DNA of 52,452 nucleotides, from the NCBI GenBank assembly GCA_029265075.1, contig JAJUJZ010000006.1, positions 1 through 52,452 of the forward strand, given 5' to 3'. The stretch comes from Gammaproteobacteria bacterium. Its GTDB lineage: Bacteria > Pseudomonadota > Gammaproteobacteria > Pseudomonadales > CAMLJR01. Every line of letters begins with the position of its first letter. Positions within the stretch are counted from its first letter, which is position 1. This document shows, piece after piece, positions 14,762 to 20,480 of the stretch. The translations under genes and the position numbers were made by a program. Under the pieces are notes generated by a model. The model worked only from the letters and a program-made list of their open reading frames with translations. It was not told where the DNA came from and did no database searches.

Positions 14762-15472
14762 CTATGAATACCGCAGGCGCAGCCAGACGGTGCCCGGTTT
14801 ACGCTCCACCTCGACACCGGTTGCCGTAGTGCGATAGGTCAGATAGCAGTGCTGGCGAGGCGCGCTGAGCACGGCAGGCTGGAAAATCGCGACACTGTCA
14901 CCGCTGCAGCGTGCCGAGCGCGTGATCAGGCCAGGCAGCCCCTGCTGATGGAAACGCTGGCCGACCTGCTGGGTGAAGCCGTAGTCGTCCGGATCGATAA
15001 GCGCGGGCCAGGTATCAACGGCGTCGCGCAGATCAATCAGCACCGCATCGAGCATGACTGTGTAAACGCTCCGCTCCATCGAAATGCCCGGCCGCAGAAA
15101 GCCCTCGGCGTCGCTCAGCAGACCATTGCGCCAGTGCCAGGCGGTCTCGTGCACGGTGGTCGCAACGCTGTCGCCGCCATACCAGACCCCGAAACTGCCG
15201 TCGGAATAGCGGCTTCTCGTCCAATGGACAAACGGGAAGCCGATGGCCGCGCTCCACGCTGCCTCTTCAAACGGCCGGCTGATCACTGGCTGCGCCGCGT
15301 GGTAGGTTGGCGGCTTATGGGCCAGCTCGACCGCTGCAGCAATGGCACGATCGCCCGGGTCGTCGCTCAGGTCATCAAACAGATCCCGCGACGCCCGCAG
15401 CGAAACGATGTTGCGGTAAGTGCGCTGGCGATGGGCCAGTGTAGCGAGGCCGGAGAAGAAGTCCTGGAGCAA
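14762..15472 (-). CDS. RES domain protein (putative NAD+-targeting toxin of a RES-Xre TA pair)
   Basis: TRSRYSDGSFGVWYGGDSVATTVHETAWH and downstream CSGDSVAIFQPAVLS fit the R...E...S pattern; follows an MbcA/Xre-type antitoxin gene. Confidence 0.82.
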   Translation of the reverse strand: MLQDFFSGLATLAHRQRTYRNIVSLRASRDLFDDLSDDPGDRAIAAAVELAHKPPTYHAAQPVISRPFEEAAWSAAIGFPFVHWTRSRYSDGSFGVWYGGDSVATTVHETAWHWRNGLLSDAEGFLRPGISMERSVYTVMLDAVLIDLRDAVDTWPALIDPDDYGFTQQVGQRFHQQGLPGLITRSARCSGDSVAIFQPAVLSAPRQHCYLTYRTTATGVEVERKPGTVWLRLRYS

Positions 15473-15475
15473 GGT

Positions 15476-15883
15476 TCAGCGCCCGCGAGCACGATCGAGA
15501 TAGGCGCGCACCATCAGCATGCCGGCAAACCCCCACTCCCGAATCACTTCGACCGGTGTGCGCTGATCGAAAGCGCGGTTGCGAGTGGAGATCCAGCGGT
15601 AGGCGAGATCGCGGTCGTTTGGAAACAGCAGTCGCAGATTCTTGTGAATGCCGAGCAGCGTAGCTGCCCGATCGAGCAGATCGCGCTGGTTGGCCAGTGG
15701 TGAGCCGTTGCGATAGCGAGTGAGCGCGGCACGGTTATCCGGCGCCAGCCCCAGCAGCGACAGCTGATCAGCCGTATCGAGCTGCCAGTGCTCAAACAGC
15801 TGCATCAGCATGCGTGCCAGTGCTCTGCGCTCTTCTTCGCTGGCAGTCCAGCGGACCGGGGCAGGTTCGGCCGTTGCGCTCAT
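15476..15883 (-). CDS. MbcA/ParS/Xre (DUF2384-type) antitoxin
   Basis: [28 protein letters not shown]...[60 protein letters not shown]. Confidence 0.85.
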
Positions 15884-15909
15884 TGCAGTCCTCCCGCGAC
15901 TTCGCAGCA

Positions 15910-15938
15910 ATTGTTACACGCACACGAAACAAATGCAA
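15910..15938 (-). promoter_or_regulatory. Sigma70-type promoter for the antitoxin-toxin operon
   Basis: On the minus strand: TTGCAT, 16-nt spacer, TAACAAT, then GGAGGA 5 nt before ATG. Confidence 0.5.
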
Positions 15939-15969: not shown

Positions 15970-16983
15970 TTAACTCCCGTAGCCGTCCGGGTTCTGGCTC
16001 TGCCAGCGCCAGCTGTCGCGCGTCATCTCGTCCAGCCCCCGCTCAGCCCGCCAGCCCAGCTCGCGCGCGGCATAGCTCGGATCTGCAAAACAGCTGGCAA
16101 CATCCCCTGGCCGGCGATCAACCAGTTTGTAGGGGATGCGCCTGCCTGACGCCTTTTCGAAAGCCGCCACCATCTGGAGGACGGAATAGCCGGTCCCCGT
16201 TCCCAGGTTGTAGGCCTGCACCCCAGACTGCGTCGCCAGCTTGTCGAGGGCGCGCAGGTGTCCCAGCGCCAGATCGACCACGTGGATGTAGTCCCGCACG
16301 CCGGTGCCATCGATGGTCGGATAGTCGCTGCCAAACACCGACAGCTCTTTCAGCTTGCCGACCGCAACCTGGCTGATAAAGGGCATGAGATTGTTGGGAA
16401 TGCCGTTGGGATCCTCCCCGATCAGACCGCTTTCGTGGGCGCCTACCGGATTGAAATAACGCAGCAGCGCCACACGCCACTGTTTGTCGGCGCGCCCCAG
16501 ATCTCGCAGGATCTCTTCGATCATCAGTTTCGAGCGGCCGTAAGGGTTGGTGGCGGAAAGCGGAAAATCTTCCCGAATCGGCACCGTGTGCGGATCGCCG
16601 TATACCGTGGCCGAAGAGCTGAACACGAGCTTGTAAATACCGTGACGCTGCATGGTTTCACACAGCGTGAGGGTGCCTTCCACGTTGTTCTGGTAATAGC
16701 GCAGGGGCTGGGCGACCGATTCGCCGACCGCCTTGAGGCCCGCAAAATGAATCACGGCTTCCGGCTGATGCGTCCTGAAAATGCGCTCCAGCGCGGCGTG
16801 GTCGCGGATGTCGGCCTCCTCCAGGGTGACCGGGCGCCCGGTAATGCGCTCCACGCGGCGCAGCGATTCGGCGTTACTGTTACTGAAATTGTCTACTACG
16901 ACCACTTCCCAGCCGGCCGCAAGCAGTTCGACACAGGTGTGACTGCCGATATAACCGGCGCCACCGGTAACCAGAACCCGCAT
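15970..16983 (-). CDS. galE: UDP-glucose 4-epimerase
   Basis: [37 protein letters not shown]...[12 protein letters not shown]...[12 protein letters not shown]. Confidence 0.97.
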
Positions 16984-17169: not shown

Positions 17170-18258
17170 ATGGCACTGCCGATCGTCGACCCGGCCCTCT
17201 ATGAGTCGCAGCTCGCCACCAAGGTGGAGCGCTTCCTCAGCGAAGCCGAGGCCCTCGAACTCCCCGCTCCTGCTATTTTCCGCTCGCCCCCTCTGCACTA
17301 CCGTCTGCGTGCCGAATTTCGTATCTGGCACGACGGTGAGCGGCTCGACTATGCGATGTTCGCACCGGAGCAGCCCAAAGTCCCGGTGCTGATCGACAGC
17401 TTCCCCGCTGGCTCGCAGCTCATCAACCATCTGATGCCGGCACTGCGGCAGCGGCTGCAGCGCGACCCGCTACTGCGGCGCAAGCTGTTCCAGGTGGAGT
17501 TTCTGACGACACTAAGCGGCGAGGCGCTGGTAACGCTGGTTTATCACCGCCGGCTCGACGAGTCCTGGCTGGAGGCTGCCGGTCCCCTACGCCGCGAACT
17601 CGGCATCGAACTGATCGGGCGCTCGCGCGGGCAGAAAATCGTGCTGGAGCGGGACTGGCTCACCGAAGAGCTTGAGGTGAACGGGCGCACCTACTCCTAT
17701 CAGCAGATCGAAAACAGCTTTACCCAGCCCAATGGGGCCATCAACCAGTCGATGCTGAGCTGGGCCCAGGAGGTGCTGGGCGAGCGTGACGATGACCTGC
17801 TGGAGCTTTACTGCGGCAATGGCAATTTCACAATGCCCCTGGCGCGAGGGTTCCGCCGCGTGCTGGCCACCGAGATCAGCAAGACCTCAATTGCTTCAGC
17901 GCAGCTCAACGCCCGTCGCAATCGGGTGAACAATGTTGAGCTGGTGCGCATGTCTAGTGAAGAGATCAGCGCGGCCCTGAACGGTGTGCGCCCGTTCCGG
18001 CGCCTCGCCCATCTCGACCTTGCGAGCTATGCCTTCAGGACGCTGCTCGTGGATCCGCCCCGCGCGGGGCTTGACGCGGGCACGCTCGAGCTGGCAAAGA
18101 ATTTCGAGAGAATTCTCTATATCTCCTGTAACCCGAAGACGCTGCTCGAAAATCTCACCGCCCTCAAACAGACACACCAGGCCCGTACCGTCGCGCTTTT
18201 CGATCAGTTTCCTTACACCGAGCACCTGGAGTGTGGGGTGCTGCTGGAGCGGTGCTGA
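17170..18258 (+). CDS. trmA: tRNA (uracil-5-)-methyltransferase TrmA
   Basis: [61 protein letters not shown]. Confidence 0.97.
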
Positions 18259-18295: not shown

Positions 18296-18604
18296 ATGAA
18301 CCGCCCGCCACGACTCGACGAAGCCGCTCTCGCAGCAGCGCTGGCAAAGCTGCCGGCGTGGTCCATTCGGGATGCGAAGCTCTATCGGGCGTGGCGCTTC
18401 CCCGACTTCTCGCAAGCGTTCGCCTTTGTCACCCGTGTGGCGCTGCTCGCAGAGCGGTTCGATCACCATCCTGAATGGCGCAATAGCTATGGCGAGGTCG
18501 AGATCTGGCTGGCGACGCACGTCAGCAGCGGGATTACTGCGCGCGATATCGCGCTGGCGGCAGCCATTGACGCACTCGACGGCCAGCCCCAGCCCTGCGC
18601 CTAG
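18296..18604 (+). CDS. 4a-hydroxytetrahydrobiopterin dehydratase
   Basis: [39 protein letters not shown] (pterin dehydratase HHPEW motif region). Confidence 0.9.
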
Positions 18605-18987
18605 CCGCCACCCTGCTCGCCGGTAACCGGCACCAGTACAAAGCGATTGCCAGGGCCCAGCTCCAGTCTGTGCGGGCGTTCGCGTAGCCGCACGCCATCG
18701 TCCAGCAGCGCTGAATCGATATCGGCGCTGGTATGCCGCACACGCAGCCAGATGGCACCTACCGGCTCCAGCTGCAGAATCACACGGCGCTGGGACGATG
18801 GCGCCAGGCCGGAAATCAGCACATCCTGCGCGATGCCGGGCCCGTGCAGTACCACGTGGACGGGCGCCTCCCCGCGATTGACGACCAGCAGCGGCACCGG
18901 GCGCTCCGCCAGTCGGTCGCCGAACCACCAGGCGATCAGCAGCACCAGTGCGGCAACTACGCCGAGCCAACGCCAGCGTCGCCTCAC
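18601..18987 (-). CDS. Hypothetical membrane-anchored protein, 128 aa
   Basis: N-terminal signal-anchor [22 protein letters not shown] then beta-rich extracytoplasmic region; ATG overlaps the upstream gene by 4 nt. Confidence 0.7.
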
Positions 18988-19853
18988 CGCAGCGGCACCC
19001 CGCGCTGCCGCAGCTCGCCGGTGAGAAATTCGTCCAGGCGCGGCAGGTGAGCGGCCTGCACTTCAATGTGATCAAGCTGGCTGCGCCGGTAATGCTCCAG
19101 CCGTGCCAGCGTCGCGCTGAGCTGGGTGGCATTCCCTTCGTCACCGCTGTAATCGATGCAGAGTTCCGCCTCCGGCAGCCAGAAGTCGGCATGATGAGGC
19201 GCCAGATGCGGTAGCGCCCGATCGCAGGCATGGAGCACGCCGGCGAGATAGAGCCAGTCACAGATAAGACGGCGACCGTGACTGCGGTGAACGTGGCCAT
19301 CGAGGCCGATTAGTCCGGCACCGGTCAGCAGGTCGTCCTGTGCCGCTGCGGGTGTCTGATAAAAGGCGCGCCCATATTCCAGCTGCTGCTGGACGGCCTG
19401 CTCCTGCAGCGCTGATTCCGGCCAGAGCACGGGAAACGGCGAGTCCTGATCGACCAGCACCCCGCCCAGTGCTTCGCCAGCGCGGGTCAGGTGCCAGCCG
19501 TTGAAATCGCGCCGCAGCAAGCCCAGCTCGCCCAGCAGACGCTGAACCTCGCGGGCGGAAATGCCATACCTGCGGCCAAGCTGCAACGCGTTCCAGTGCC
19601 GGTTATCCTCCAGACCGCGCAGCAGCGGGTGCTCGAGAATCTCCGCCGGCCAGACGATATAACGTCCATAACGACGGCTGTGCACGTATTCGCCGCCTTC
19701 GAACTCACCCTTGCCGGTCAGCAGCCAGCCGTCGTCGGCCTTCCGGATCCAGCCATAATCACGCAGTGTCGTGAACAGCTGCTGCAGCGGCAGGTGCAGC
19801 GCCTTGGCCACTGCCGAGGTCGAAAGCTTGTGTTCCGGCGCGACCTCGTTCAT
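18984..19853 (-). CDS. Protein with two tandem winged-helix-like repeats and a C-terminal PD-(D/E)XK/Vsr-like nuclease-type domain
   Basis: Repeats ending GWLLTGKGEFEGG...YIVWPAEIL and GWHLTRAGEALGG...FPVLWPESAL; C-terminal HRSHGRRLICDWLYLAGVLHACDRALP...ADFWLPEAELCIDYSGDE...LDHIEVQAAHLPRLDEFL. Confidence 0.65.
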   Translation of the reverse strand: MNEVAPEHKLSTSAVAKALHLPLQQLFTTLRDYGWIRKADDGWLLTGKGEFEGGEYVHSRRYGRYIVWPAEILEHPLLRGLEDNRHWNALQLGRRYGISAREVQRLLGELGLLRRDFNGWHLTRAGEALGGVLVDQDSPFPVLWPESALQEQAVQQQLEYGRAFYQTPAAAQDDLLTGAGLIGLDGHVHRSHGRRLICDWLYLAGVLHACDRALPHLAPHHADFWLPEAELCIDYSGDEGNATQLSATLARLEHYRRSQLDHIEVQAAHLPRLDEFLTGELRQRGVPLR

Positions 19854-19856
19854 AGC

Positions 19857-20480
19857 TCACCCGGCGGTCTGCTGATAGCGGTCAGTCAAGGCAGCATAGA
19901 GGGCATCAGGAAAATCGGCACGGTTACTGTCCAGCTCGGCGAGCAGCTCGACCAGATGCTCGTTGTCCTCGCGGCCGGCCCATAGCTTACGGTACTCGCC
20001 GCTCTTATAACCGTGGTCCTGGCGGAAGAAATTGAGTACGTTCTTGCCGACATACTGGCGGTGCAGGGTCGCGAAATCGAGTTCCACAGCGGTCAGCAGC
20101 TCCCAGAAGGCAGAGACCGAGAATGCTCTGTGACTGAGCGCAAAAGCAGCCAGTGCTTCAGTCGCCTCGCGCACGTCCTGCCCCTGATAACGCCAGTCGG
20201 CCAGTTCCGCCTCGATCTCTGCGGCAATCAGCTCGACCGCCTTGCCAGGCCGGAACAGTGCGCTCATACCGAAATGCCAGATGTCGACTACTTCCAGGCG
20301 CACCTGGGCGAGATCGGGCTCCTGCTTTTTCCACCATTTATAGCCGTAATGCTCGATCAGCTCGCCGCACTCGATCCACACCGCCCGGTACCAGGCGAAC
20401 TGCTGGTCAATCCACTCCGGATGCACCCTGGTGTTCATCCGGTCCTGCAGGGTCAGCATGGTGGTCAGGGCTTGACGCAT
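19857..20480 (-). CDS. dUTP diphosphatase, all-alpha (dimeric/MazG-like) type
   Basis: LQDRMNTRVHPEWIDQQFAWYRAVWIECGELIEHYGYKWWKKQEPDLAQVRLEVVDIWHF (ExxE...ExxD all-alpha NTP-PPase pattern). Confidence 0.88.
   Translation of the reverse strand: MRQALTTMLTLQDRMNTRVHPEWIDQQFAWYRAVWIECGELIEHYGYKWWKKQEPDLAQVRLEVVDIWHFGMSALFRPGKAVELIAAEIEAELADWRYQGQDVREATEALAAFALSHRAFSVSAFWELLTAVELDFATLHRQYVGKNVLNFFRQDHGYKSGEYRKLWAGREDNEHLVELLAELDSNRADFPDALYAALTDRYQQTAG

Follow-up and report, generated by a model that had tools for sequence, protein, structure and literature searches.

Prokaryotes use two unrelated families of dUTPase, and some prokaryotes are without either (PMC5122711). The dUTPase of the locus described here resembles the all-alpha dUTPases (PF08761, for example 1w2y) in family match and active-site motifs, and differs from them in its operon partners; the literature consulted gave no description of an all-alpha dUTPase together with either partner gene (here gene 2 and gene 3). 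Gene 2 matches nearly its full length to PDC-S69 of PADLOC, the PDC genes being termed 'phage defence candidates' (PMC11514479). PDC-S69 is, however, a candidate label only, and a literature search found no publication naming it or reporting a test; moreover, the copy studied here is without catalytic residues, stands in a housekeeping context and is apparently coupled to a dUTPase. The C-terminal part of gene 2 (residues 184-285) shares its fold with the Vsr-like/PD-(D/E)XK nucleases, including I-Bth0305I (3r3p) and NGO0050 (3hrl), and is distinguished from these by the absence of active-site residues and the presence of two N-terminal winged helices. The first winged-helix module is also common to PLD-family nucleases with a C-terminal winged helix, in which the catalytic domain is unrelated and the domain order is opposite. 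The likeness to the Stl repressor of SaPI is conceptual only, with no homology claimed: Stl is a DNA-binding protein answering to dUTPases of two unrelated folds, and the dUTPases in question are phage enzymes acting in trans (PMC5608427).

Organization of the locus and the dUTPase gene

The stretch of DNA analysed (hereafter the window) is 52,452 nucleotides long, and its contig belongs to a 2.8-Mb, about 90% complete genome of a marine bacterium. Three open reading frames are closely packed on the minus strand, with the spacing exactly as given in the preliminary description: gene 1 (19857..20480), encoding an all-alpha (dimeric-type) dUTPase of 207 aa; gene 2 (18984..19853), encoding a 289-aa tandem winged-helix protein with a degenerate PD-(D/E)XK/Vsr-like C-terminal domain; and gene 3 (18601..18987), encoding a 128-aa small protein with a GTG start, supported by an AlphaFold model and orthologues. 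The stop of the dUTPase gene is separated from the ATG of gene 2 by 3 nt (19854-19856), and genes 2 and 3 overlap by 4 nt. Gene 3 also overlaps, a detail absent from the preliminary description, by 4 nt (18601-18604) with the convergent gene for pterin-4a-carbinolamine dehydratase (PCD; 18296..18604, plus strand; PF01329, E=2.2e-29), located after trmA (tRNA uracil-5-methyltransferase; 17170..18258, plus strand; PF05958, E=1.1e-150), a conserved convergent neighbour of the operon. The wider conserved synteny includes galE (15970..16983, minus strand), and a 71% identical galE adjoins trmA in a relative, G031. With ybiB, these genes form a housekeeping neighbourhood. A consensus scan of the operon strand found neither promoter nor terminator, a point against the operon reading favoured below. 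Between ybiB and galE, the window carries a pair of RES-domain toxin (PF08808) and Xre/MbcA/ParS antitoxin (PF09722) genes (14762-15910, minus strand), an insertion relative to G031.

The earlier assignment of gene 1 as an all-alpha dUTPase was correct. The protein matches PF08761 (dUTPase_2) with E=9.6e-29 and 101.2 bits (cut-off 22.9) and can be aligned with 1w2y, a dUTPase of the Campylobacter jejuni type (E=3e-26), the alignment showing both metal-binding motifs (E37xxE40 and E63xxD66) and the C-terminal motif GYKxGxYxKxWxGxEDN, present as KNVLNFFRQDHGYKSGEYRKLWAGREDNE. Among 57 relatives, the all-alpha dUTPase was found in 34 and the trimeric Dut in 21, with no genome carrying both; both families were absent only from two incomplete genomes (G003 and G054). 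Because the two families never co-occur, and because the genome of the window gave only a weak, dCTP-deaminase-like match to the trimeric Dut family, the enzyme is most likely the sole, housekeeping dUTPase of this cell, by non-orthologous displacement. Three near-complete genomes (G462, G612 and G648) contain gene 2 together with neither an all-alpha dUTPase nor a strong match to trimeric Dut, and life without a known dUTPase is possible in these cases. A metallo-beta-lactamase-fold hydrolase gene repeatedly adjoins the all-alpha dUTPase gene, with or without gene 2 (L042:8141-8797, L046:10382-11029, L164:4660-5304 and L168:4814-5470), with 4-nt overlaps in three loci.

We favour, with about even confidence, the reading that the locus is a vertically inherited chromosomal housekeeping dUTPase operon, in which gene 2 is a nuclease-derived DNA-binding accessory, and not a mobile defence locus. 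The dUTPase would hydrolyse dUTP, keeping uracil out of DNA and providing dUMP for dTMP synthesis; gene 2 would be produced in step with the dUTPase via translational coupling, and would bind DNA via its two winged helices rather than cut it, acting as a regulator or as an accessory factor where DNA is replicated or uracil is repaired; gene 3 would add, only in a subclade, a membrane-anchored and probably periplasmic protein. The analysis shows the identities of the genes, their junctions, the predicted fold, the lost catalytic residues, purifying selection among relatives, a likely single origin of the linkage and the mutual exclusion with Dut; translational coupling, binding of DNA rather than cleavage, the topology of gene 3, the role, and any biochemical tie of gene 2 to the dUTPase are inferred. 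A role of gene 2 in the control of dUTP or uracil would be directly testable in cultured strains of Zhongshania, Spongiibacter or Halieaceae.

Linkage of gene 2 to the dUTPase gene

The linkage was surveyed in 295 genomes of the order and in 71 named loci, the latter yielded by closer alignment after a single-protein scan of genome contigs had given no match. The all-alpha dUTPase is present in 129 of the 295 genomes (72 of them without gene 2), and gene 2 in 66, of which 57 have both; in 41 of these 57 the two genes are adjacent, representing seven family groups (f1, f4, f9, f11, f24, f30 and f41). Fisher's exact test for co-occurrence gave p=7e-16, a value that ignores phylogeny and for this reason is not used as a probability. 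Among the 71 named loci, the dUTPase gene adjoins gene 2 in 43, trmA lies in the same stretch as gene 2 in 44, and PCD, a conserved neighbour, is near gene 2 in 27; where all are present, the gene order is dUTPase > gene 2 >< (PCD) trmA. In 41 linked relatives the junction between the dUTPase gene and gene 2 could be measured; it lies between -8 and 33 nt in all but one, which has 103 nt, and these short junctions place the close packing above chance. The preliminary description had put the three genes forward as a candidate for an undescribed unit. Its linkage of dUTPase and gene 2 is borne out by both surveys; the three-gene set, in contrast, is not a general unit, being limited to a subclade (gene 3 in 10 of the 295 genomes), nor is gene 2 wholly undescribed, since PADLOC already models it as PDC-S69. 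In this way a conserved housekeeping partner is found for a family so far listed solely as a candidate for phage defence.

Named relatives that share this arrangement belong to the gammaproteobacteria (Spongiibacteraceae, Halieaceae and allied groups) or are bins from metagenomes whose labels are broader. One sister record (L085, JAQGNY010000035.1), with the closest gene 2 (57%), is an exception in that it is labelled Verrucomicrobiaceae, a label that looks wrong.

In a quick tree, in which some branches stay open, the linked copies of gene 2 fall in one part; linkage need have been gained only about once and lost a few times, and it most likely arose once. That it is essentially one evolutionary event speaks against the favoured reading and for a serious rival, namely that gene 2 was inserted once downstream of the dUTPase gene and has since been carried along by the operon structure, without any functional tie; we regard this as possible, if on balance unlikely. 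In line with such neutral neighbours, the slot after the dUTPase gene varies, being occupied by the metallo-beta-lactamase hydrolase (L042, L046 and L164) or an alpha/beta hydrolase (L175), and in G001 gene 2 is followed by a protein kinase gene. Outside the linked clade gene 2 is located elsewhere, including the families with trimeric Dut (f31, f39, f47 and part of f38), where it stands elsewhere in the genome. Within f4, the metallo-beta-lactamase hydrolase gene sits between the dUTPase gene and gene 2. The tie is not obligatory, since gene 2 has become a pseudogene beside the dUTPase gene (a remnant with a stop in G009), has been replaced (an alpha/beta hydrolase gene takes its place in G633), or has been retained after loss of the dUTPase (L098 and Litorivivens). 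A 290-aa open reading frame of G633, considered as a diverged gene 2, was rejected as being this alpha/beta hydrolase. Against mere neighbourhood, the pair remains near-gapless across seven families, while its surroundings have been disrupted in a number of lineages, with the pair persisting without adjacent trmA in L085, L090, L189 and L190; in addition, gene 3 stands after the dUTPase gene in all 10 genomes that carry it, whether that dUTPase has the all-alpha fold or a different one.

Gene 3 and the trmA/galE/ybiB slot

For gene 3, the AlphaFold model (pLDDT 80) predicts an N-terminal transmembrane helix (residues 3-25) followed by a beta-sandwich, so that its description as a small membrane-anchored protein holds. 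The product is probably periplasmic, as judged from its positive N-terminus. Foldseek returned generic beta-sandwich matches to solved structures, none with E < 0.001, and for this reason no function is drawn for gene 3. PADLOC gave no match for either gene 1 or gene 3. Six relatives among the named genomes keep gene 3 at the stop of gene 2, and in three of these the overlap is likewise 4 nt; the GTG start is supported because gene 3 of the relatives begins at the matching position with respect to this stop.

In profile searches, the 10 genomes with gene 3 carried it always directly behind the dUTPase operon. In nine of them it directly follows the dUTPase-gene 2 pair, including G466 and G490, in which trmA is not nearby; in the tenth, G031, it comes 9 nt after a trimeric Dut gene in the same trmA/galE/ybiB slot. 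Gene 3 thus goes with the dUTPase gene and not with gene 2 or trmA, and at this slot the dUTPase has been replaced in place by an unrelated enzyme. In one chromosomal slot, two unrelated dUTPases interchange beside the same neighbours. The trimeric Dut occupies the slot at L187:3257-5185 (G031) and L188:3768-5305 (G440, a congener of G031), the Dut gene and trmA of G440 being convergent without gene 3. On the other side of Dut in G031 are the genes for ribonucleotide reductase and a TSCPD-domain protein.

Domains, active site and possible roles of gene 2

The AlphaFold model of gene 2 (pLDDT 90) comprises two winged-helix repeats and a C-terminal domain. Repeat 1 (residues 8-72; 19638..19832, minus strand), the best conserved part as judged from the invariant columns of alignment A3, terminates in GEFEGGxYxxSxRYGRYIVWP, and repeat 2 (residues 84-147; 19413..19604, minus strand) aligns to it by hhalign at 99.2% (E=2.9e-19), this repeat-versus-repeat match and the model together confirming the tandem winged-helix assignment. 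The degenerate nuclease domain (residues 184-285; 18999..19304, minus strand), recognized by alignment to the E-D-E-K members and by the model, has the predicted alpha-beta-beta-beta-alpha-beta order of the PD-(D/E)XK core. Its best solved match by Foldseek is 3r3p, the catalytic domain of the Vsr-like I-Bth0305I (prob 1.00, TMt 0.69, E only 0.029); a search of protein P0001 against PDB by sequence gave noise matches only. The nuclease-like tail noted earlier is therefore sound as to fold, but the name 'nuclease' is misleading for the window copy because its catalytic residues are lost. The positions of the catalytic Glu/Asp/Glu/Lys set are occupied by R194, D223, D234 and T248/R251, so that Arg stands where motif I should have Glu, and Thr/Arg stand in place of the lysines; D223 is retained, and motif III still has an acidic residue.

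The E/D/E/K set is complete in 5 of the 6 members from outside the order and in 5 of 39 dUTPase-linked members, these five being of the Halieaceae type. Within the order, the Glu of motif I is kept in 12 of 39 linked and 12 of 30 unlinked members; it has undergone at least nine changes across the tree, and the majority of copies within the order lack it, irrespective of linkage. Erosion is not clearly a consequence of the linkage, because the unlinked members of the order are nearly as eroded, and a connection between the two was dropped. The dN/dS of family members is 0.02-0.09 at unsaturated synonymous sites, with the C-terminal domain included and also in members without the Glu, indicating that purifying selection on the family is still strong. 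Low dN/dS in the Glu-less members suggests that the C-terminal domain, at least in these copies, is kept for a purpose different from canonical cleavage. The case is one of a nuclease fold in which the active site was lost repeatedly and selection persists. A DNA-targeting role of gene 2 is likely because its first winged-helix module is also found fused to PLD nucleases, in Acidovorax plasmids and in Vibrio inoviruses (filamentous phages).

An anti-phage function, in which gene 2 is a single-gene effector (PDC-S69) cutting or binding invading DNA, with the dUTPase co-opted as sensor or antidote, is improbable for the window. The match to PDC-S69 (PDLC05067) is full-length (positions 8-286 of 289, E=4e-82), relatives with intact residues outside the order are found near a type I restriction system and a Fic gene (L048) or near a UvrD-family helicase gene on a conjugative plasmid, and the Stl-dUTPase control offers a precedent for a DNA-binding protein answering to a dUTPase (PMC5608427). 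The window copy, however, has lost the active site and is surrounded by trmA, PCD, galE and ybiB rather than by a defence island; the linked genes follow a clade and are inherited with the lineage, instead of showing the patchy distribution of a mobile anti-phage island. Plasmids seldom carry gene 2 (14 of 72,556 records), and full-length gene 2 was not found in phages, which carry the N-terminal module at most; for the PDC-S69 label itself no test was found in the literature. The defence-island reading of the window was rejected on context and mobility, and the defence option of the preliminary description is accordingly not favoured here; for the relatives outside the order, a defence role is possible. 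In Methylotuvimicrobium alcaliphilum 20Z, the conjugative plasmid has at L051:4006-7891 a gene 2 homologue with an intact active site, located directly behind the UvrD-family helicase gene, near umuD.

Two further readings are more doubtful still. Control by the dUTPase could be direct, with gene 2 a nuclease turned DNA-binding sensor that responds to the co-translated dUTPase or to the load of dUTP or uracil, and gene 3 connecting this state with the envelope; in that case gene 3 would be an accessory of dUTPases generally, because it follows trimeric Dut in the same slot as well. An active DNA-repair nuclease, coupled to the dUTPase for residual dUMP in DNA and acting on uracil-containing or mismatched DNA, would agree with the Vsr-like/homing-endonuclease fold, the retained acidic residues and the five linked Halieaceae-type copies, but is very unlikely given the replacement of the Glu and the lysines in the window and the retention of this Glu in so few linked copies. 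The reading of gene 2 as a DNA-binding accessory of a housekeeping dUTPase operon is preferred to both. PLD-family proteins ending in the first winged-helix module of gene 2 are encoded at L053:3503-4204 and L054:3494-4204, and the copy from phage bears the annotation 'DNA repair protein'.
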